This document shows positions 29,475 through 58,910 of a stretch of 58,910 nucleotides of DNA, one piece after another (position 1 is the stretch's first letter; each line of letters opens with the position of its first letter). The stretch lies in NCBI RefSeq assembly GCF_001438845.1, contig NZ_JQCL01000103.1, forward strand, positions 166,417-225,326, given 5' to 3'. The position numbers were made by a program, and so were the translations under genes. This stretch comes from Lactiplantibacillus xiangfangensis (GTDB lineage Bacteria > Bacillota > Bacilli > Lactobacillales > Lactobacillaceae). The notes beneath the pieces are model-generated. The model saw only the letters and a list, made by a program, of their open reading frames with translations. It was not told where the DNA came from and did no database searches.

Positions 29475-29504
29475 TTATTTGTACACTTATTATTGTCGAC
29501 TAAT

Positions 29505-29684
29505 CGGAGGTTGCCACTGATGGCATCGGTCGTGAAGGTGGCGTTTGGCCAATGATTCTTTGGCCTTACACCACGGACGGTCCGGAACAATTGCAAAAAA
29601 ACGCAATTGTTCCGGGCGAGGGGTTAGACCGCTCCTCAGGCTAACCCCGGTCCCACGACCGCATGTCATCAGTGGCAACCGGAC
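29505..29684 (+). repeat. Structured repeat family 1, copy 1
   Basis: A member of a four-copy family of about 180 bases (others at 37245, 42697 and, reversed, 58644). The ends pair as GGTTGCCACTGAT with ATCAGTGGCAACC, then GGTCGTG with CACGACC. Inside are three hairpins: GGCCAA/TTGGCC, CCGGAACAATTGC/GCAATTGTTCCGG, and GGGGTTAG/CTAACCCC around the fixed loop ACCGCTCCTCAGG. It fills the gap between the VOC terminator and the PTS stop codon, ending 3 bases from the latter. Confidence 0.85.
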
Positions 29685-29687
29685 TTC

Positions 29688-31649
29688 CTATTCTGCCGCG
29701 CCAACCATATCGCCAGCGGTGACTGTTTGATCCCCATTGAGGGATAAGTTCGTCACGTGGTCCATATTAGTTATAACGACCATCATCGTTGTCTTTTTCC
29801 CAGCGGCTTTAATCGCTGCTAAATCAACCGTCGCTACGGCTGAACCCGCTGCAATCTGATCACCTTGTTCAACGTGTAATTCAAACGGTGTCCCGTTCAT
29901 TTCCACCGTGTTGATGCCCATATGCAACAAGATTTCTAACCCAGATGCCGTCTTCAAACCGACCGCATGCTTCGTTGGAAAAATACTGGTGACTTCACCA
30001 CTAACCGGTGATACCACTTCCGCATCCGTTGGTTCAACCGCGTAGCCATCACCCAGTAGTTTCTGAGCAAACGTCGAGTCGTCTACCGCGCTAATTGGCA
30101 TCAACTGACCCGTTGCGGGTGCGTGCATGACGGTCGTTACGGGAACACTTGGCGCTTCCGTTGTTTCCGCCTTAGTTGGTGCGACCGTTTCAGCCGTCGG
30201 AGTCGCACTTAATTGACCCGTGAATAGTTGTTGTAAGGCTTCCGCAACAAATTGTACTTCCGTTCCAATTACGATATGAATGTTATGTGTATCCAATACG
30301 TTTAATCCGGGGACTCCCGCTGCTTTTACTGCATTTTGATCGACCTTAGCCGTATCCTTTAATTGTAATCGCAACCGAGTCGTACAGTGGTTGATGACGT
30401 CGATGTTATCCTGACCACCAATCGCTGCGTAGATTTTCTTGGCTTGGCGTTGATACTTATCGTCAGTTTCATCCACTGCCACCGTTTCATCAGCGGTCGC
30501 AACGACGTCTTCACGCCCCGGCGTCTTCAAGTTAAACCGCTTAATGGCAAAGTCAAAGCCGAAGTAGTAAATGACCGCCATTACTAGTCCTTGTACGATC
30601 AACATGTATGGTTGGTTCGCCAGTGGCATCCGGAAACTTAACAAATAATCGACAAGCCCACCACTGAATGAAAAACTAGCGGTCCAGTGCATCAGGGCCG
30701 CAAAGCCGGCTGAAACACCCATTAATACCGCGTGAACCAAATATAATGGCCAAGCAACAAACATGAATGAAAATTCCAACGGTTCGGTCACACCGGTAAA
30801 GAACGATGCAAACGCGCCGGCCAACATCAGTGAGCCCACTTCTTTTTTGCGTTCGGGCCGTGCGTTTCGATAAATCGCGTACGCCCCAGCTGGTAACCCA
30901 AACATCATCACTGGGAAGAACCCGGCTTCATACATCCCGGTCACGCCCTTAACCCCGTGGCTAGCCCAGAAATTACCAATATCGTTGATTCCAGCCACGT
31001 TAAACCAAAATACGGAGTTTAACGCGTGGTGTAACCCAGTTGGAATCAATAACCGGTTAAAGAACCCGTAGAGTCCCGCACCAACAAAACCAAGTTTTGA
31101 GATGCTCGTTGCAAAGGCAACCATGCCATCATAGAAAAATGGCCAAACGAAGTACATTCCCGCAGTAAAAAATAACATGACAAAAGCCGCCATGATTGGC
31201 ACTAATCGTTTTCCACTAAAAAACGAGATGGCCATGGGGAGCTTAACTTCATGAAATTTATTATACAAGGCCGCGGCAATTAACCCGGCACAGATCCCAA
31301 CTAGGACGTTACCGTTAATATATTGAAACGCGGTCTTAACGTGACTCGCTTTAATGTTGAGTAACGTTGCTAACCCGGCTGGTGCTAACATGGTCGTTGG
31401 GACCAAGTACGCAACCAGACCCGCAATTGCAGCTGAGCCATCCTTATTCGTCGTCATCCCAACGGCTAACCCAACCGCAAACAGTAGCGCTAAGTTATTT
31501 AAAATTACATTACCGCCTGAAATCATGAAACGTGATAAGATCCACGCCTTCGGTAAGTAGTTACCGAGCCCCACTAAAATCGCTGCCGCTGGTAACGTGG
31601 CAATCGGCAACATTAGTGATTGCCCGACTCTTTGAAAATATGTCTTCAT
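29688..31649 (-). CDS. pts18CBA: PTS N-acetylglucosamine/glucose transporter, EIICBA
   Basis: A 653-residue three-domain permease. EIIC (about 1-385) has the GlcNAc/glucose-type helices and the GVTEPLEFSFMF motif; EIIB (about 405-480) has the phospho-Cys in INHCTTRLRL; EIIA (about 510-650) has the phospho-His in EILLHMGINTVE. It imports and phosphorylates N-acetylglucosamine and probably glucose, using phosphate from HPr. GAGGAG precedes the ATG. Upstream are a sigma-A promoter and a weak cre-like site, which would fit catabolite control. The domain order matches NagE. Confidence 0.92.
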   Translation of the reverse strand: MKTYFQRVGQSLMLPIATLPAAAILVGLGNYLPKAWILSRFMISGGNVILNNLALLFAVGLAVGMTTNKDGSAAIAGLVAYLVPTTMLAPAGLATLLNIKASHVKTAFQYINGNVLVGICAGLIAAALYNKFHEVKLPMAISFFSGKRLVPIMAAFVMLFFTAGMYFVWPFFYDGMVAFATSISKLGFVGAGLYGFFNRLLIPTGLHHALNSVFWFNVAGINDIGNFWASHGVKGVTGMYEAGFFPVMMFGLPAGAYAIYRNARPERKKEVGSLMLAGAFASFFTGVTEPLEFSFMFVAWPLYLVHAVLMGVSAGFAALMHWTASFSFSGGLVDYLLSFRMPLANQPYMLIVQGLVMAVIYYFGFDFAIKRFNLKTPGREDVVATADETVAVDETDDKYQRQAKKIYAAIGGQDNIDVINHCTTRLRLQLKDTAKVDQNAVKAAGVPGLNVLDTHNIHIVIGTEVQFVAEALQQLFTGQLSATPTAETVAPTKAETTEAPSVPVTTVMHAPATGQLMPISAVDDSTFAQKLLGDGYAVEPTDAEVVSPVSGEVTSIFPTKHAVGLKTASGLEILLHMGINTVEMNGTPFELHVEQGDQIAAGSAVATVDLAAIKAAGKKTTMMVVITNMDHVTNLSLNGDQTVTAGDMVGAAE

Positions 31650-36895: not shown

Positions 36896-37025
36896 TCTAA
36901 CACCTGGATGAGTGCCTGTCAACTTTCTGCTTCAAACTTTTCTTCATCCGCCTATTTAGTCCGAAAGTTAACTAATTATGACTAAATACTTTCTAAAAAG
37001 TAAAAGGCCTAAAATCACTGTAGGT

Positions 37026-37204
37026 TATCCACTCCGTCGGGGAGCACTGGGTGCTATGGGGGATGGCCCCCAGCCATAGTTCGGTCTGGGACCTCAATTC
37101 AAAGCCGACAGCCCACGTCTTTGAATTGCCCCGCAAGATTGGCGCAAAGAGCGTCCGCCAATCTTGCCGACACAGCACGCCAACACTCCCCGCCTTCGCT
37201 CAAA
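37026..37204 (-). repeat. Structured repeat family 2, reversed copy
   Basis: Second repeat family, about 180 bases; other copies at 40771 and 58857 and a remnant at 53478. Read on the minus strand, the outer stem is CGGGGAGTGTTGG against CCAGTGCTCCCCG. Inner hairpins are CAAGATTGGCG/CGCCAATCTTG and CAATTCAAAG/CTTTGAATTG. Compared with the 40771 copy, the outer stem and the second hairpin change on both sides so that pairing is kept. It lies back to back with family 1 at 37245. Confidence 0.8.
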
Positions 37205-37244
37205 TTAGCTTTCCTATTATTGATTCAAAAATTCATTGAATCAT

Positions 37245-37427
37245 CGAAGGCTGGCGCTGATAACATCAGTCGTGAAGGTGGCGTTGAATCGGCAGTTTTT
37301 CTGCCGATTTTACACCACGGACGGTCCGGGACAATTGCGACTTTTGCAACTGTCCCGGGCGAGGATTGAGACCGCTCCTCAGGCTTAATCCGGTCCCACG
37401 ACTGCATGTTATCAGCGCCAACCGGAC
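37245..37427 (+). repeat. Structured repeat family 1, copy 2
   Basis: Outer stem GGCTGGCGCTGAT / ATCAGCGCCAACC and AGTCGTG / CACGACT, hairpins ATCGGCAG/CTGCCGAT, CCGGGACA/TGTCCCGG and GGATTGAG/CTTAATCC around ACCGCTCCTCAGG. Every stem differs in sequence from the other copies yet still pairs. It lies 40 bases from the family 2 copy. Confidence 0.85.
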
Positions 37428-37616
37428 TGGTAGGTTCAACAAGAGAATGTTTTTCATTATCAATCTTAATTATTCTGTTAGCATCGGCTGTTCACATTAT
37501 TTTTTAATTATTTTCAAATTTATCTTATTAGCCAATTTTGCTGGCTACATCAGGGATTAACCCCTTAAAATTCCGACTGATTTCTAATGATTCTGTGAAC
37601 AATTTCAGAAAAAGCC
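37428..37616. other. AT-rich gene-free spacer
   Basis: Between the repeat pair and the ABC operon promoter. No gene or hairpin of note. Confidence 0.4.
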
Positions 37617-37645
37617 TTGACACGCTTTTTTCCTTTGCCTATACT
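37617..37645 (+). promoter_or_regulatory. Strong sigma-A promoter of the ABC operon leader
   Basis: Perfect TTGACA (37617-37622), a 17-base spacer and TATACT (37640-37645). The start of transcription should be near 37652, giving a leader of almost 290 bases. Confidence 0.85.
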
Positions 37646-37651
37646 AAACTC

Positions 37652-37888
37652 AATTAATAAACGAAAGCGAGGAACCAAGGATGACAAAGTTAGTGCTCAA
37701 CTTGAACAGTTCATGGCAAAGCCGGCCGTTCAGATTGTAATTCCGTTGCACGGATACAATCTGGCAAACAGTTTGTATCTGTGCCGGCTTAACTTTGATA
37801 TCCAAAGGAGTCTGCATGGGTTTTAGACACAGCAGGCTTCGGTTCCCTAAAGGGCAAACCAGGCTTACTGGTTTGCCCTTTTTTTGAC
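37652..37888 (+). promoter_or_regulatory. Attenuator-like structured leader of the ABC operon
   Basis: The leader folds as CAAAGTTA (37685-37692) against TAACTTTG, enclosing GCCGGC against GCCGGC and the hairpin AGATTGTA/TACAATCT. It ends in an intrinsic terminator, GGGCAAACCAG/CTGGTTTGCCC plus seven Ts (37851-37885). GGTT-CCC-TAAA-GGG just before could form a competing hairpin. It is neither a T-box nor any riboswitch consensus I know. A 19-codon leader ORF lies inside, so translation could steer folding. Confidence 0.65.
37681..37740 (+). CDS. Possible leader peptide, 19 aa with one Trp
   Basis: A 19-codon frame (MTKLVLNLNSSWQSRPFRL) with GCGAGG about 9 bases before the ATG. It covers the 5' arms of the leader stems, and its stop codon falls inside the AGATTGTA hairpin. 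The single Trp codon sits just before the GCCGGC stem. This geometry fits ribosome-controlled attenuation, but a coding role is unproven. Confidence 0.4.
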   Translation: MTKLVLNLNSSWQSRPFRL

Positions 37889-37938
37889 GACTTTGCCCGA
37901 ATCAGTTCTTCATTCTAAATTATTTTGAGGTGACAATA

Positions 37939-38949
37939 TTGAAACGTATGATTGCATTTATTAGTGCCCTAATCGTTTTTCTAGGCGTCGCGTTCTTCGC
38001 GACCGGCAATAAAAAAACGACTAGTGCTCAAGATACAGCCGGTAAGATTCCAACGGTCGGCATCTTACAACTCCAGACCCACCCCGCACTTGACGCGATT
38101 CATCGCGGCGTGATCGCCGGCTTAAAGGAATACGGCTACGTCCCGGGCAAGACCGTTAAGATTGACTATCAAAATGCTCAAGGTGACCAAAGCAACTTAA
38201 AGACGATGAGTCAAAAGTTCACCAACGAAAACGCTGCGGAAACGATTGGGATTGCCACACCAGCAGCCCAAGCTCTAGCAACCGCGGCTAACAAGGAAAC
38301 ACCAGTTATCCTTGCCGGTATTACCGATCCATCCGGGAGTGGCTTAATCAAAAGTGACCAACATCCCGGTGCCAACATTACGGGGACTTCGGGTGAATCA
38401 CCATTAAAGTCCCACCTAGATTTACTCAAGCAATTAGTCCCAAAGGCTAAAACCATTGGAATTATCTACACGACTTCCGATCATGGTGGCGAATACAACG
38501 CGAAGAAGTTTGCCCGGATCTGTAAACAAGCTGGTGTGAAGTACAAGCTCTACACCATCGCTAACACCAACGATATGCAACAAGTTGCCGAAACGATGGC
38601 TTCCCAAGTAGACGCCGTTTACGCGCCACAAGATAACGGGGTCGCCAGTGCGATGAAGACCTTAGTCTCCGTCACAAACAAAGCAAACGTTCCCGTCATT
38701 CCAGCAGTTGATACCATGGTCAAGGCTGGTGGTCTAGCCACCCTCTCCGTTGACCAGTACCAATTAGGGAAACTCTCAGGCGAAATGGCTGCCCAAGTTT
38801 TAAAGGGGAAGTCCCCTAACAACTATGCCATTAAGATTATTTCTAAAGGTAAAATGACGTTAAATTTATCCGCTGCCAAGAAATTAGGCATCAAATTCCC
38901 AGCCAGCGTGCTGAAGGAAGCCAAAACGAAAGGGGTTATTTACAAATGA
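37939..38949 (+). CDS. ABC importer substrate-binding protein (PF04392 type)
   Basis: Start at TTG 37939 (MKRMIAFISALIVFLG), which has GAGGTGA 5 bases upstream; the ATG 9 bases further on is a less likely alternative. The 336-residue protein has an N-terminal signal helix and the two-lobed fold of the ABC_sub_bind family (VGILQLQTHPALDAIHRGVIAGLKEYGYVPG). Relatives bind aromatic amino acids, notably tryptophan, or other small ligands. It lacks a lipobox cysteine, so it is probably held by an uncleaved signal anchor or released. First gene of a three-gene operon. Confidence 0.88.
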   Translation: MKRMIAFISALIVFLGVAFFATGNKKTTSAQDTAGKIPTVGILQLQTHPALDAIHRGVIAGLKEYGYVPGKTVKIDYQNAQGDQSNLKTMSQKFTNENAAETIGIATPAAQALATAANKETPVILAGITDPSGSGLIKSDQHPGANITGTSGESPLKSHLDLLKQLVPKAKTIGIIYTTSDHGGEYNAKKFARICKQAGVKYKLYTIANTNDMQQVAETMASQVDAVYAPQDNGVASAMKTLVSVTNKANVPVIPAVDTMVKAGGLATLSVDQYQLGKLSGEMAAQVLKGKSPNNYAIKIISKGKMTLNLSAAKKLGIKFPASVLKEAKTKGVIYK

Positions 38950-39854
38950 GTATGATCGTATCTAGTATCGGCCAGGGCCTCTTATGGGCTACCTTAGGCG
39001 TCGCATTATTCTTAACTTTCCGAATCTTAGATTTCCCTGATATGACCGTTGAAGGCACGTTCCCACTAGGTGCCGCTACCGCCGTCATGGCAATCAGTCA
39101 CGGCATGGGGCCACTTACCGCTTCGCTCCTCGCCTTTGTGGCCGGCGCCGTCACCGGACTCGTTACCGGCTTGCTATACACCAAGGGTAAGGTTCCCATC
39201 CTGTTAGCCGGAATCCTAGTCATGACCGCTTGTCTCTCCATTAACTTACGGATCATGGGCGGCAGTTCGAACGTTTCACTATTAGGAAAAACGACGCTAT
39301 TTTCCAACCACTTTCTCGCAACGTTACCAAAATATTTCGACAGTGTCTTCGTTGGGTTAGTCGTGATTTCCGTCATTACAATTTTACTGATGGTCTTTTT
39401 ACAAACGAACCTAGGCCAAGCCTTCATTGTCACTGGCGACAACCGTGAGATGGCCCGCTCAATCGGAATCAACACCGACAACATGACCATCATGGGACTA
39501 ATGGTTTCTAACGGAATCATTGGTTTAGGCGGTGCTTTAATTGCTCAAAACAATGGTTACGCTGATGTCAGCATGGGGATTGGGATCATCGTCATCGCGT
39601 TAGCTTCAATTATCATTGGCGAAGTCGTCTTTGGTGAATTGACGTTAAACCAACGTTTAATTGCCGTAACCTTAGGGAGTATTCTCTATCAATTCGTCCG
39701 GTTACTCGTCCTTCAACTTGGATTCAATACCAACGACATGAACCTGTTATCCGCCTTGATTTTGGCCATTTGCTTGATGTTGCCACAATTCAGTAAAGCC
39801 CTACACCTAAACCACGTTTTGAAGAGAGGAGTTGCCCGTTATGACGAAAACTAA
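38946..39854 (+). CDS. ABC importer permease
   Basis: A 302-residue membrane protein with about eight helices, of the BPD_transp_2 type (LIV/sugar-like), with FRILDFPDMTVEGTFPLGAA at the start and TGDNREMARSIGINTDNM as the loop contacting the ATPase. Its ATG overlaps the stop of the binding-protein gene by 4 bases (ATGA), and its end overlaps the ATPase start by 14 bases. It forms the membrane channel. Confidence 0.9.
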   Translation: MSMIVSSIGQGLLWATLGVALFLTFRILDFPDMTVEGTFPLGAATAVMAISHGMGPLTASLLAFVAGAVTGLVTGLLYTKGKVPILLAGILVMTACLSINLRIMGGSSNVSLLGKTTLFSNHFLATLPKYFDSVFVGLVVISVITILLMVFLQTNLGQAFIVTGDNREMARSIGINTDNMTIMGLMVSNGIIGLGGALIAQNNGYADVSMGIGIIVIALASIIIGEVVFGELTLNQRLIAVTLGSILYQFVRLLVLQLGFNTNDMNLLSALILAICLMLPQFSKALHLNHVLKRGVARYDEN

Positions 39855-40623
39855 TCAACCCTTACTTGCGTTAAACGACATCGTTACGAAGGTCAACGCC
39901 GGCACCCCTAACGAAGTCATGATTTTAAAGCACCTCAACTTGAATATTTACGACGGCGACTTCATTACCGTTCTTGGCTCCAACGGTGCGGGTAAGTCGA
40001 CTCTCTTCAATACGATCAGTGGTGAACTCCCCGTCACCGACGGCCAAATCAAGTTACGCGGCCGTGACATTACCCACCTTTCCGTTGAAAAACGGACGGC
40101 CTTCTTAGCCCGGGTCTTCCAAGACCCCAAGATGGGAACCGCCCCACGAATGACGGTCGCTGAAAACCTCTTGTTAGCCAACCAACGTGGCAAACGCCGC
40201 ACGTTGCGCTTACGCCGGCTGAAGCAGCACATGGCCCAATTCAAGGAACTGACGGCTTCCATGGATAGTAACGGTTTATCCGACCGACTCAATACCGCCA
40301 CGGAAAATCTTTCCGGTGGCCAACGCCAAGCCTTGAGTTTCTTAATGGCGACGGAACAACGGCCCGACTTATTACTGCTCGATGAACACACGGCCGCCCT
40401 CGACCCTAAAACCAGCGAACAGCTGATGGTGCAAACTAATCAGCGGGTCACTCAGGAAAAATTGACTTGCTTGATGATCACCCACCACTTAGACGACGCT
40501 TTAAAGTACGGCAACCGCCTCATCGTCTTAGATCAGGGCCAAATCAAGTACGACGTTCGTGACGAAGAGAAAGCCCAACTTACGAAGGAACAACTTCTTA
40601 GCTTCTTCGATACGATCGAATAA
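39841..40623 (+). CDS. ABC importer ATPase
   Basis: Start at 39841 (MTKTNQPLLALND) with AGAGAGGAG upstream. The 260-residue ATPase has Walker A GSNGAGKST, signature ENLSGGQRQ and Walker B DLLLLDEHTAALD, where His replaces the more usual Pro, as is common in this subfamily. It powers the PF04392-type importer. Third and last gene; a strong terminator follows. Confidence 0.92.
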   Translation: MTKTNQPLLALNDIVTKVNAGTPNEVMILKHLNLNIYDGDFITVLGSNGAGKSTLFNTISGELPVTDGQIKLRGRDITHLSVEKRTAFLARVFQDPKMGTAPRMTVAENLLLANQRGKRRTLRLRRLKQHMAQFKELTASMDSNGLSDRLNTATENLSGGQRQALSFLMATEQRPDLLLLDEHTAALDPKTSEQLMVQTNQRVTQEKLTCLMITHHLDDALKYGNRLIVLDQGQIKYDVRDEEKAQLTKEQLLSFFDTIE

Positions 40624-40640
40624 TTTTGACACGACAACCT

Positions 40641-40688
40641 AAAAATCTCCTTAAGCTAATCACTACGGCTTAAGGAGATTTTTTTCAG
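40641..40688 (+). terminator. Terminator of the ABC operon
   Basis: AAAAATCTCCTTAAG pairs with CTTAAGGAGATTTTT around a 13-base loop, followed by Ts. Confidence 0.93.
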
Positions 40689-40770
40689 ATAAAGGTTGAA
40701 AGTTGAGTTTGAGAATTAACTACTTGTAAACCAGTCCGGTTATTTGATGGTAATAGCAATAGTAAGACTG

Positions 40771-40950
40771 TTTTGAGCGCAGTCTGGTAGAGTTGGCGTG
40801 CTGTGTCGGCAAGATTGGCGGGTGAATTTTACGCCAATCTTGCGGGGCACTTCAAAGACGTGGGTTATCGGCTTTGAAGTGAGGGCCCAGACCGTCCTCT
40901 GGCTGGGGCCGTCCCCCATAGCACACCAGCTCTACCAGACGGAGCGGATC
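40771..40950 (+). repeat. Structured repeat family 2, forward copy
   Basis: Full-length copy bounded by TTTTGAGCGCAG and GACGGAGCGGATC. The outer stem GTCTGGTAGAGTTGG / CCAGCTCTACCAGAC is perfect. Inner hairpins are CAAGATTGGCG/CGCCAATCTTG, CACTTCAAAG/CTTTGAAGTG and CCCAGAC.../GGCTGGGG. Upstream, TAATAGCAATAGTAAG matches the linker seen in the composite at 58840, as if a family 1 partner had been lost. Confidence 0.8.
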
Positions 40951-41068
40951 ATTTAGGAATAGTTATCGTAACGATGTTAATAGTAATTTTAGACTTTTTA
41001 ACCGTTAACTTTCACTAATCAGAATCAATAAATAGATGCCCCCGTAATTAATTATGTAACCGTTTTGT

Positions 41069-41097
41069 TTGCTAGTCCACCGAGGTAGTGTTATATT
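41069..41097 (+). promoter_or_regulatory. Promoter of the NADH peroxidase gene
   Basis: TTGCTA (41069-41074), a 17-base spacer and TATATT (41092-41097). Confidence 0.6.
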
Positions 41098-41101
41098 CAA
41101 T

Positions 41102-41116
41102 TTAGAATAGTTCTAA
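41102..41116. promoter_or_regulatory. PerR-box-like palindrome at the npr start site
   Basis: TTAGAATAGTTCTAA is a 7-1-7 inverted repeat matching the PerR consensus TTATAATNATTATAA at 11 of 14 defined positions. It overlaps the expected transcription start, a position suited to repression of a peroxide-detoxifying gene. Confidence 0.5.
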
Positions 41117-41138
41117 ACTAAAATTGGAGGTCGTCATA

Positions 41139-42494
41139 ATGAAAGTTATTGTCGTTGGTTCTTCACATGGTGGTTATGAAACAGTTCGTGGTATTTTGGC
41201 CGCTCAGCCGGATACAGAGATTCAGTGGTACGAAAAGGGCGATTTTCTGTCCTTCCTATCCTGCGGGATGCAGCTCTACCTTGAAGGCGTCGTCAAAGAC
41301 GTTAACAAGGTGAGCTACGCCACCCCTGAAGGTATGCAGGCTCAGGGCGTTCACGTTTTCCTCAACTCGGAAATTGCTAAAGTTCAACCTGATCAACATA
41401 CGGTGCACGTCATTGATCACGCTAGCGGTCAGGAACGTGACGAAAGCTATGACAAGTTAGTCTTAAGTGTCGGTGCCGTCCCATTTGACCTGCCCGTTCC
41501 CGGACACGACCTTCAAAACGTCTACGCCATGCGGGGACGTGATTGGGCGATGAAGTTGAAAGCCAAGACGGTTGATCCATCCGTTAAAAACGTGGTTGTC
41601 ATCGGCTCCGGTTACATTGGTATCGAAGCGGCCGAAGTCTTTGCGAAAGCCGGCATGCACGTCACGGTCATCGACCTCTTACCACGCTTGCTCAGCCTCT
41701 ATTTGGACCAAGAATTTACTGACATTTTGACGAAAACCATGACGGCACACGGTATTTACCCCGCCGTTGGTCAAGGTATCAAGTCGTTTGAAGGTCAGGA
41801 TGGTCACGTCACCAAAGTCGTAACTGACCAAGGCGAATACCCAGCAGACTTGGTTGTTTCAGCGGCCGGAATTCGGCCAGCTACCGGCTTCTTAAAGGGC
41901 GTTGTTGATTTAGACGACCACGGCCTGATCAAGATCAACGACCACCTGCAAACTAGCGAACCAGACATTTACGCCGTTGGGGATGCAACCTTAGTGCCAT
42001 TCGCACCAACTGGTAAGGACAACCGGATTGCCTTAGCGACGGTTGCACGTCGCCAAGGTCGGATTGCCGCACAAAACTTATTAGGCGGCGATTTTCCAAT
42101 GGTACCCGTTTCAGGTTCATCGGCCCTCTCCGTTTTCGACTATCACTTTGCCTCAACCGGGATTAAGGAAGGAACGAGTGATAAGCTAGGCGTCAAGAGC
42201 GCGTCAGTCCTAGTGACCGACACCATTCGGCCAAAGTTCGTTCCCGAATCGGACGGTAATACCAAGGTTTGGTTCAAGTTGACCTTTGACCCAGAAGACG
42301 GTCGGGTCCTTGGCGCACAAATCATGTCAAAAGCTGACGTAACGGCAAACATTAACGCCATTTCCGTCGCCATTCAAGCGAACATGACCGTGGCGGACCT
42401 CGCCTACGCTGACTTCTTCTTCCAGCCTGGCTTTGACCGGCCTTGGAACATCATTAACGTGGCCGCACAAAAAGCGCTCGTTGATTTGAAATAG
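41139..42494 (+). CDS. npr: NADH peroxidase / NADH oxidase family flavoprotein
   Basis: Start at 41139 ([16 protein letters not shown]), with TTGGAGG upstream. The 451-residue protein has the FAD site at the N-terminus, the single redox Cys in [15 protein letters not shown] (about residue 43), the NADH fold [17 protein letters not shown] and the second FAD motif [10 protein letters not shown]. These enzymes reduce H2O2 or O2 to water with NADH through a Cys-sulfenic acid. Peroxidase and oxidase cannot be separated by motif alone; the PerR-like box favours a peroxide role. Monocistronic. Confidence 0.9.
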
Positions 42495-42518
42495 TCCACT
42501 TTAAACCTTAATTACATC

Positions 42519-42577
42519 AAAACTGCGTAGCTACTCCTGACAATGAATGTCAGCGGTAGCTACGCAGTTGTTTTTAT
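42519..42577 (+). terminator. Terminator of npr
   Basis: AACTGCGTAGCTAC pairs with GTAGCTACGCAGTT, then GTTTTTATT. Confidence 0.9.
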
Positions 42578-42696
42578 TATTAAAATCTGAAAATATTGCT
42601 GTCAACATTTTAATAACAGCAATAAGACTTTCCAAATCAGTCGTTCTAACGTAAGATTTTCCACCTCCGCTAAATCGATGTTAATATCGAAGCCAT

Positions 42697-42875
42697 CGGA
42701 GGTTGTCGCTGATAGCATCGGTCGTGAAGGTGACCTTTGACCGGTGATTTTCCGGTCTTAGGCCACGGACGGTCCGGAACAATTGCGTTCTTGGCAAGTG
42801 TTCCGGGCGAGAGGCTAGACCGCTCCTCAGGCTAGCCTCGGTCCCACGACCGCATGTTATCAGCGACAACCGGAT
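42697..42875 (+). repeat. Structured repeat family 1, copy 3
   Basis: Outer stem GGTTGTCGCTGAT / ATCAGCGACAACC and GGTCGTG / CACGACC; hairpins CCGG/CCGG, CCGGAACA/TGTTCCGG and GAGGCTAG/CTAGCCTC around ACCGCTCCTCAGG. It ends 13 bases from the stop codon of the convergent dehydrogenase gene. Confidence 0.85.
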
Positions 42876-42887
42876 TTGAATATATGG

Positions 42888-43745
42888 TTAATAAATATTA
42901 ATTAATCCCTGAGTCCCTTGGTCTCCCAGGCCCTTAACGTCGACCATGACTTCATAAAGTCGTTTGGCCTGAGCCGTTGCGACTAAGTCCAGACCCATGG
43001 CGTCCGCCTCACTCAACGCAATTCTCAAGTCCTTCAAGAAATGGCGGGCAAAGAATCCTGGGGTATAGTCATCCTTCAAGATGCGAGGCACGTAATTTTC
43101 CATGCTCCAGTTGTCAGCACCACCGCTAGATAAGGTTGCTAACACCTTCTGTGGGTCTAAACCAGCTGCCTTAGTGTAAAGTAACATTTCGGTTAACCCC
43201 GTCATCGTACCAGCAATCATAATTTGGTTGGCCATCTTGGCATGCTGACCCGTGCCAGCGGCCCCAAAATGATTGACCTTATGTCCGATAACGTTGAACA
43301 ACGGTAACATGGCTTGGTAAGTTGTCACGTCACCACCAACCATGATCGTTAGCGTGGCGTTCTTTGCGCCAATATCACCGCCAGATACCGGTGCATCCAA
43401 CGCGTGCATGCCGTGCGCCGTGGCGTAAGCGGCAATCTTTGCCGCCAGCTTAGGCTGACTCGTTGTCATGTCGACGACCGTCTTACCTTTTGCTAAACCG
43501 GCAAAAATCCCCGTCTCGCCAAAGTAAACTCCTTCGACATCTTTTGGAAAACCAACCATGGTGAAGACCACGTCACTTTGCTGCGCAACTTCGGCTGGCG
43601 AAGCGGCCCAAACCGCCCCTTGTGCCACTAAGTTGTCGGTCTTACGTTTGGTCCGATTATAAACTACCAACTGATGACCCGCAGCCATCAGATTTTGAAC
43701 CATCGCGGCGCCCATGACGCCGGTTCCAATCCAACCAATTTTCAT
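42888..43745 (-). CDS. Beta-hydroxyacid dehydrogenase (HIBADH/GarR family)
   Basis: A 285-residue NAD(P)-dependent oxidoreductase with GWIGTGVMGAAMVQNL (Rossmann loop), the substrate motif DAPVSGGDIGAKNATL and the catalytic Lys in GTGQHAKMANQIMI. Family substrates include 3-hydroxyisobutyrate, tartronate semialdehyde and other small hydroxyacids; which one is used here is not clear. AAAGGGA precedes the ATG. Possibly co-transcribed with the TerC gene upstream (26-base gap). Confidence 0.9.
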   Translation of the reverse strand: MKIGWIGTGVMGAAMVQNLMAAGHQLVVYNRTKRKTDNLVAQGAVWAASPAEVAQQSDVVFTMVGFPKDVEGVYFGETGIFAGLAKGKTVVDMTTSQPKLAAKIAAYATAHGMHALDAPVSGGDIGAKNATLTIMVGGDVTTYQAMLPLFNVIGHKVNHFGAAGTGQHAKMANQIMIAGTMTGLTEMLLYTKAAGLDPQKVLATLSSGGADNWSMENYVPRILKDDYTPGFFARHFLKDLRIALSEADAMGLDLVATAQAKRLYEVMVDVKGLGDQGTQGLINIY

Positions 43746-44518: not shown

Positions 44519-44657
44519 GCAACAACCTCTTTCTGTTTGTAAATAATTACTCTCTTCTAGTATACCTGTTATAGGGTGGCCTGAAATAATCAAACCTAAT
44601 TTTCTGTAAATAATCGGCTGACTAATTAAACCCAAACGAGGTGTGCGGATGCTGTTT

Positions 44658-44715
44658 ACATTAAAATGGCGTTTAAGAAATAAGTTAATTCATTTCTTAA
44701 ACGCCATTTTAATGT
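44658..44715. terminator. Long inverted repeat after hisC
   Basis: A perfect 24-base stem (begins ACATTAAAATGGCGTTTAAG) with a 10-base loop, directly after the his operon. It lacks a long T tract, so it may act as a terminator or as a 3' stabilising hairpin. Confidence 0.7.
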
Positions 44716-44733
44716 AGTCATATGAAATTCACC

Positions 44734-53416: not shown

Positions 53417-53477
53417 CTTCTCATCGCCTTTTAATATTTTAATCATATTCAAACATAGTTTAACGGCTAATACAAGT

Positions 53478-53535
53478 CAGACCGCACTTCGGCTAGGGCC
53501 GTCCCCTAGCACACTAGTTCTGCCAGACGAAGCAG
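53478..53535 (+). repeat. Remnant of structured repeat family 2
   Basis: This 58-base stretch aligns with the 3' third of the 40771 copy (CAGACCG, GGGCCGTCCC, TAGCACAC, CCAGACGAAGCAG), while the 5' two thirds including the outer stem are gone. A decayed copy. Confidence 0.7.
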
Positions 53536-58555: not shown

Positions 58556-58643
58556 AAATAATTAAAAGTTGAAGGCTAAATTTAGTGACTGATTACGACT
58601 GTATCAGTGTTCAGGCTACTACAAATTAGCGACGTTTAAGCTG

Positions 58644-58826
58644 GTCCGGCTGACACTGATGCCATGTGGTCGTGGGACCGGATCGAGCCTGAGAAACGGT
58701 CTCGACCTTCGCCCGGAACACTTGCAAAAGACGCAATTGTCCCGGACCGTCCGTGGTGTAAGCTCGGCAAAAGAAACGCCGCGCTAACGCCACCTTCACG
58801 ACCAATATCATCAGTGACAGCCTCCG
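58644..58826 (-). repeat. Structured repeat family 1, copy 4 (reversed)
   Basis: Read on the minus strand: outer stem GGCTGTCACTGAT / ATCAGTGTCAGCC and GGTCGTG / CACGACC, hairpins CCGGGACA.../...TGTTCCGG and GGTCGAG/CTCGATCC. The loop ACCGTTTCTCAGG differs slightly from the other copies. It abuts a family 2 copy in the same relative order as at 37 kb. Confidence 0.83.
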
Positions 58827-58856
58827 ATTATCCGACAATCATAGCAATAGTAAGCT

Positions 58857-58910
58857 TATTTTGAGCGCAGTCGGGTAACCTTGGTGTGCTGTGTCGGCAA
58901 GATTGGCGGG
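58857..58910 (+). repeat. Structured repeat family 2 (partial at window end)
   Basis: Begins with TTTTGAGCGCAGTC, then GTGCTGTGTCGGCAAGATTGG as in the other copies, and runs off the window. Confidence 0.8.

Follow-up and report, generated by a model that had tools for sequence, protein, structure and literature searches.

Elements with some of the properties reported here have been described in several bacterial groups. MITEs, including the Correia elements, appear in passages of a review (PMC10969869) as short, intergenic, folded repeats with terminal inverted repeats, target duplications and ends shared with insertion sequences (IS), as do the repeats studied here; the term 'Lactobac' is absent from the main text of that review. 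Unlike the elements in those passages, our repeats have an interior of two inverted complex modules that are diverse in sequence yet conserved in shape across genera. REPINs, i.e., doublets of REP units associated with RAYT transposases, are similar in that an inverted pair of palindromic units replicates and single units are read as remnants, and passages of the same source report compensatory changes to be common in their hairpins, REPINs being mobile DNA (PMC3116915). REP units are short, about 20–40 bp according to part of PMC3733652, whereas our modules measure ~174–186 nt. Compared with REPINs as portrayed in those excerpts, our units (~175–185 nt) also contain nested three-way junctions, have the ends of an IS4-family element and are accompanied by target duplications.

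Another member of the order Lactobacillales is the pneumococcus. Its BOX, RUP and SPRITE elements are presented in passages of PMC3049150 as high-copy folded repeats, some of them transcribed, and are in this respect like ours, which are probably other elements; 'covari' and 'compensatory' are absent from the text of that paper. The STAXI motif (PMC2864571) is likewise a comparative-genomics motif for which a role in single-stranded DNA was considered by its authors, but it consists of pseudoknot repeats near DNA-handling genes, and the passages concerned describe no transposon interior, unlike ours. A published stem-loop survey includes Lactobacillus johnsonii among its genomes, according to part of its text. 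No title or abstract start in the literature searched, which left subscription papers mostly outside, named the present family, and it may be in print elsewhere.

The window, i.e., the whole stretch of 58,910 nt analyzed here, corresponds to C53:166417–225326 of a 2.99-Mb genome in 103 contigs (G000). Four copies of a structured repeat had been proposed in it by an earlier note, and all four were recovered at their places as matches to a model of one ~185-nt module, designated E1 (192–201 bits each). The repeat found 5′ of many E1 copies is a diverged homolog, E2, to which the E1 model matches on the opposite strand. E1 and E2 are homologous modules of ~175–185 nt with one common fold containing two nested three-way junctions. 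The features in the window were as follows.

~29500–29685, + strand: single E1 module scoring 198.7 bits with the E1 model; neither an E2 partner nor a terminal repeat recognized
29688–31649 (frame), − strand: gene beside the first E1 module, with its stop codon ~3–5 nt from the E1 3′ end; putative PTS transporter by translation
37032–37202, − strand: E2 module, inverted partner of the E1 module at 37240–37427 (51.4 bits with the E1 model, matched at 37032–37203; 156.8 bits with its own model)
37203–37239, no strand: AT-rich spacer of 37–38 nt between the head-to-head modules
37240–37427, + strand: E1 module of the head-to-head pair; the same site is occupied in the related genome G004 (L194)
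40689–40701 (C53:207105–207117), + strand: terminal inverted repeat ATAAAGGTTGAAA of a copy lacking E1; one mismatch to CTAAAGGTTGAAA
40774–40944, + strand: E2 module of this E1-less deletion copy (73.7 bits with the E1 model, matched at 40773–40944; 167.5 bits with its own model)
42692–42875, + strand: E1 module (201 bits); no E2 partner recognized
42888–43745 (frame), − strand: gene beside the third E1 module, with its stop codon ~13 nt from the E1 3′ end
53449–53532, + strand: E2 fragment (37.0 bits; model positions 82–174 of 174)
58562–58574, + strand: terminal inverted repeat of the right-edge pair in degenerate form, TTAAAAGTTGAAG; its mate lies outside the window at C53:225501–225513
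58644–58831, − strand: E1 member of a head-to-head pair that the window end interrupts (191.9 bits)
58862–58909, + strand: start of E2, partner of 58644–58831, truncated at the window end (33.0 bits)

The count of four was correct as far as given but too low, and the genome proved far richer: near-full-length modules numbered 111 in G000 (window plus fetched stretches) and 72 in G004 (fetched stretches), with decayed copies under-represented because loci were picked by model score. Four subfamilies of ~174–186-nt units were distinguished (E1, E1b, E2, and E2b). Another module was located within 300 nt of 65 of the 119 E1-class modules of at least 60 bits in these two genomes, and 54 had none; per genome, an E2-class neighbor was present for 40 of 73 in G000 (33 without) and for 25 of 46 in G004 (21 without). 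In all 65 pairs the partner was an inverted E2-class module, placed head-to-head on the 5′ side of E1. Close pairs were also found in G035, a genome of another genus with 124 model matches, where 15 of the 16 pairs extracted were inverted and one (L257) was same-strand. The G035 modules had sharp ends (TTAGCYGGAGG to CCGCAGGCGAC) and mutually unrelated pair spacers of 130–413 nt, and no terminal repeat was seen around the extracted pairs. One intergenic site held an E1–E2 pair in G004 (L208) and an E1b module in G000 (L182), as if reused or replaced.

A complete element is a transposon-like unit of ~540 nt with 13-bp terminal inverted repeats and 7–9-bp target duplications; a mechanically called 82-aa ORF overlaps 37121–37369, within the window's head-to-head pair. 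Its parts are, in order, a terminal repeat, an AT-rich arm of ~50–70 nt, E2 pointing outward, a short spacer, E1 pointing outward, a like arm, and the second terminal repeat. The ends common to copies are CTAAAGRTTGAAA...TTTCAAYCTTTAG, with TTTCAAYCTTTAG lying ~50–70 nt past the module 3′ end in copies of all four subfamilies. The sequence CTAAAGGTTGAAA is present at both ends of complete copies and had 81 matches in the genome (at most one mismatch) vs. 9 for the reversed control. Among the window copies, a recognizable terminal repeat accompanied only the one at 58644 and the E1-less copy at 40689. Young copies (n = 17, from 18 fetched loci with L302 left out) measured 362–549 bp, 13 of them 538–549 bp, and showed target duplications such as TTAACCAA and GACGCGAC, some with a mismatch. 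Two G000 copies were absent from G004, and the target TTAATAA was single in G004 and duplicated around the G000 insert.

An exact scan found the terminal repeat in 12 of the 21 genus genomes. Among the matches listed, repeat pairs ~540 bp apart marked young copies (G020, G015), and a spacing of 1565–1567 bp marked insertion sequences (G008, G020). These insertion sequences, which have the element's ends (1567 bp in G020, L284; 1565 bp in G008, L285), encode transposases of 451 and 457 aa, respectively, with DDE domains (Pfam) and assignment to the IS4 family (NCBIfam NF049925; 460 and 482 bits, cut-off 250). An IS4-family transposase probably acts in trans on the element ends. Relatives of the G020 transposase were detected in four of the 21 genus genomes (protein search, E ≤ 1e-50). 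No relative was found at this threshold in G015, despite its many young copies, or in G000, and present-day mobility in G000 is therefore not demonstrated. Terminal repeats, target duplications and empty sites nevertheless identify the complete copies as mobile DNA, and the repeats almost certainly constitute a family of small non-autonomous transposable elements resembling MITEs and REPINs. The earlier note had set a conserved RNA structure against a simple mobile DNA repeat, a contrast not supported in view of these features of complete copies, including their IS4-family ends.

The RNA fold calculated for positions 29502–29685 had a free energy of −116.2 kcal/mol (z = −13.4), which was equaled in none of 200 shuffles; the antisense strand of the same copy folded less stably (−108.4 kcal/mol). 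The closing stem of E1 (P1) has 26 pairs and one bulge on its 3′ side. It opens into a three-way junction from which hairpin P2 and a 4-bp helix branch; next comes a second such junction, bearing hairpins P3 and P4. A pseudoknot between loop and junction (GACCG/CGGTC) was considered by eye and set aside; both sides are nearly constant in E1. The fixed unpaired blocks and the stems varying in step that had been reported were present in the window copies, but two of the stem examples quoted were imperfect, with one C-A mismatch inside GGCTGGC/GCCAACC and one G-T inside the loop stem GGATTGAG/CTTAATCC.

In 32 genomic copies, standard pairs accounted for 94.8% of the cells in 66 pairs, and two-sided changes occurred at 34 of the 66 pairs, compared to a shuffle mean of 17.2 and to 6–10 with slid partners. 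In 88 modules from several genomes (alignment A4, built from 66 selected loci with a match threshold of E ≤ 1e-16), two-sided changes were seen at 65 of 66 pairs and the covariation score was 0.598 vs. 0.188 in shuffles, in an alignment that was fitted to the model and is therefore biased towards the structure. A tree-aware null, a custom test rather than R-scape in which Fitch changes were redistributed by branch in 60 simulations and G was APC-corrected, yielded 18 pairs at E < 0.05, all inside the structure, with 48 of the 66 pairs below significance. The conserved secondary structure and strong covariation claimed for the repeat were thereby supported. Alignment A3 comprised 131 rows, and 13 rows overlapping a better match were dropped before counting. 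Across 17 groups, at least 90% conservation was reached by 19 of 53 unpaired columns vs. 20 of 132 paired columns, and the loop and junction letters AGACCG....GGCT were kept across groups and genera.

Evolution in place could be followed at 14 E1 loci orthologous between G000 and G004. Changes affected 29 of 1016 sites in columns at least 97% conserved in the family and 80 of 255 in columns less than 60% conserved, with 52/258, 45/276, and 59/533 in the intermediate classes. Family-conserved columns thus changed little and variable ones often, so that the structure was kept per locus, by selection, conversion, or both. There were 41 two-sided pair differences, 27 of them from Watson-Crick to Watson-Crick, and 102 one-sided differences; a pair is broken by 51 of the latter, and a G-U is created or removed by 48. 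Two distant G004 copies, L080 (5563–5745) and L220 (3097–3281), have an identical P3 unlike that of their G000 orthologs, pointing to gene conversion between copies, and swapped hairpins appear to distinguish L132 from L041 and L166 from L195. Exchange of whole hairpins between copies thus seems to be the source of some two-sided changes. The apparent exchanges in these three sets and the frequent two-sided changes at the 14 loci would be expected if the hairpins had no function and were kept by mutation alone, through template switching at imperfect palindromes and gene conversion. This explanation is highly improbable, as it does not account for the loop and junction letters conserved across groups and genera, nor for the fact that family-conserved columns change slowly at a given locus, unless conversion alone suffices. 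Selection on the fold is very probable.

The pairing types within the stems bear on the molecule in which the fold acts. A G-U pair on one strand is an A-C mismatch on the other, and a functional RNA is therefore expected to show many G-U pairs and few A-C mismatches. RNase P RNA (RF00011), a structured RNA of the same bacterial family as the modules, taken from 30 of 41 Lactobacillaceae genomes searched, served as the sole yardstick and was richer in G-U and poorer in A-C: 297 G-U and 19 A-C in 2708 cells (11 and 0.7%) vs. 265 and 166 in 5665 cells of the modules (4.7 and 2.9%). In columns with 70–100% Watson-Crick pairs, the G-U:A-C ratio was 2.3 in the modules (136:58) and 7.6 in RNase P RNA; by subset, it was 2.0 in the 32 E1 copies, 1.7 in the Lactiplantibacillus rows, and 4.3 in G035 (47:11). 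The corresponding count in 135 E1 rows (columns at least 70% Watson-Crick), to which up to 32 copies contributed twice with different edges, was 203 G-U and 167 A-C. The consensuses of 17 groups, eight of which consist of one or two sequences, had 35 G-U, 27 A-C, and 72 non-pairs, a count to which E1-model pairs forced onto distant groups add noise. Differences between orthologs favored G-U over A-C (48 vs. 26, p = 0.014).

The modules are thus wobble-poor, yet not symmetric between strands. The excess of G-U over A-C points to one strand, the E1-sense strand, and fits either RNA or single-stranded DNA; neutral decay in old copies may have diluted a G-U bias. Covariation had been taken as the mark of an RNA, but here it does not point to RNA alone: relative to RNase P RNA from the same bacterial family, G-U pairs are scarcer and A-C mismatches more frequent. 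Since the stems are mostly Watson-Crick with few G-U, folded DNA or an RNA of both strands is inferred, with less certainty, and we give roughly even chances to a fold that acts at the DNA level or on both strands, as against a single strand of RNA.

Genes adjoining the modules were taken from a mechanical ORF caller, with orthologous loci of G000 and G004 counted in both. The gene on the 3′ side pointed at the module for 96 of 113 E1-class modules (96:17) and 42 of 73 E2-class modules (42:31) in these genomes (Fisher p = 6e-5). The E1 bias was present with terminal repeats (23:4) and without them (73:13), and was 18:2 in 20 modules of other Lactiplantibacillus genomes; other genera showed it weakly (29:16, p = 0.07), as did the 17 young copies (11:6; difference from old copies p = 0.08). 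Between tandem genes of G000, 26 modules were antisense and seven sense. The median distance from module to facing gene was 61–86 nt in copies without a terminal repeat. For replication direction as a possible cause of the orientation, the counts were 6:3 for copies in the minority orientation and 22:4 for those in the majority orientation. The facing of module 3′ ends and gene 3′ ends is unexplained by a pure DNA parasite; it would be explicable by selection against copies reading into gene starts, or by a role behind genes.

A role behind genes is specified by the proposal that the antisense strand works in 3′ UTRs, as a transcription barrier or as a stabilizer of mRNA 3′ ends, or that both strands act as a bidirectional insulator. 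E1-class modules are antisense to the gene that they face, at the short distances given above and with the 26 vs. 7 bias in tandem pairs, and function on both strands would disfavor G-U and so explain the Watson-Crick stems. We nevertheless regard this as unlikely: no T-run followed the fold in either direction when inspected by eye, for which reason the module was also rejected as an intrinsic terminator, some genes keep a terminator of their own between stop codon and module, and the orientation bias is weak in other genera and in E2.

Promoter-like scores exceeded those of shuffles in E1 (7.47 vs. 6.26, n = 95) and E2 (7.44 vs. 6.46, n = 52), two excesses that are not independent because the copies are homologous. 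No such excess was seen for E1b, E2b, or other genera, and only a small one in G035 (6.23 vs. 5.84, sd 0.36). A dedicated spacer promoter (GATAAT before CGGAGG) was dropped as a candidate on account of its absence from E1b, E2b, and other genera, and a short peptide past GGAGG, noticed by eye, was set aside for lack of a conserved start codon. Outward terminators were found in 0–12% of 3′ flanks, except for E1b (55% of 11), with 2–7% in shuffles; inward terminators were found in 17% of 30 G035 flanks and in 12% of 17 flanks in other genera. It is somewhat unlikely that the module is a structured non-coding RNA (E1 sense), transcribed outward from the spacer, carried by the mobile element and acting in trans or in cis, with copies surviving where this transcript encounters the 3′ end of a gene in convergent orientation. 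Such an RNA would agree with the fold and its conserved unpaired blocks, the G-U excess in the E1-sense strand (highest in G035), the stabler sense fold of the one copy folded, the promoter-like scores of E1 and E2, and the gene 3′ ends facing the E1 3′ end. It does not agree with the missing promoter signal in E1b, E2b, and other genera and its near absence in G035, with the rarity of outward terminators outside E1b, or with a G-U:A-C ratio below that of RNase P RNA.

Taking the evidence as a whole, we lean slightly towards a mobile element with twin folded modules in which selection acts on the fold at the level of DNA or on the RNA of both strands. As DNA, the fold would be a hairpin or cruciform, formed while the DNA is single-stranded or supercoiled. 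It would serve the element, for example by making insertion tolerable beside gene ends or, alternatively, by displaying a structure for a DNA-processing protein of the host. The further proposal, that a large covarying fold owes its conservation to a role in DNA (or in both strands at once) rather than in an RNA, with twin outward modules as the working part of a transposable element, is put forward tentatively. If the DNA-level reading is true, covariation alone would no longer be proof of RNA. Structured-RNA discovery relies on covariation, and this family, which combines very strong covariation and more than 100 modules in each of two genomes with other marks of mobile DNA, lends itself as a natural test of how a covarying fold should be interpreted. 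It also offers a way to study the use of structure by inverted-pair elements such as MITEs and REPINs, and a feature lacking an Rfam entry adjoins many genes of lactic acid bacteria.

The claimed spread of the family rests on strong matches only. A 35-base element pattern, in a search that may miss records very near the window, matched 50 stretches, five in Lactiplantibacillus nangangensis and 45 in one uncultured Lactobacillus assembly (CALFSK). A first model (R1) matched 14 of 60 relatives, i.e., 13 of the 21 genus genomes (G001 weakly) and G035. Of 397 genomes of Lactobacillaceae, representing 40 genera, 108 in 10 genera had a match to a broader model (R2) at E ≤ 1e-5, and 58 in five genera had one at E ≤ 1e-30 (tallied by eye from the table); module matches were weaker in five further genera of the family. 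The order-wide search matched 16 of 295 genomes, five of them outside the family and weakly (E 3.5e-9 to 1e-5), and in a phylum sample of 398 genomes only G000 matched. The weak matches in further genomes (E 1e-5 to 1e-28), including those in other families of the order, may represent other palindromic repeats. Many weak matches of ~145–155 nt were seen in G010, G013, G091, and others, and may belong to another palindromic repeat family of lactobacilli. No related DNA was found in phages with one E1 module as query, in plasmids with one E2–E1 pair and modules of two other genera as queries, or in viral contigs with one exact pattern.

The earlier statement that no named RNA family fits agreed with Rfam 15, in which none of the modules searched matched at gathering score. 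When 36900–43100 was searched at E ≤ 5, two weak microRNA matches overlapped E2, mir-310 with 19.2 bits (gathering 48) and mir-15 with 18.8 bits (gathering 57.3). Modules from three other genera, at eight loci, were searched at E ≤ 0.5; the two weak matches obtained both lay outside the modules. The only matches of the whole window at gathering score were a tmRNA (RF00023; 16748–17115, + strand) and a T-box leader (RF00230; 52288–52520, − strand). Two further repeats were observed in the window: copies of 75–135 nt spaced 173–184 nt apart at its left edge (1–434), and a loopless inverted repeat of 30 + 30 nt with 93% complementarity at 44657–44716.
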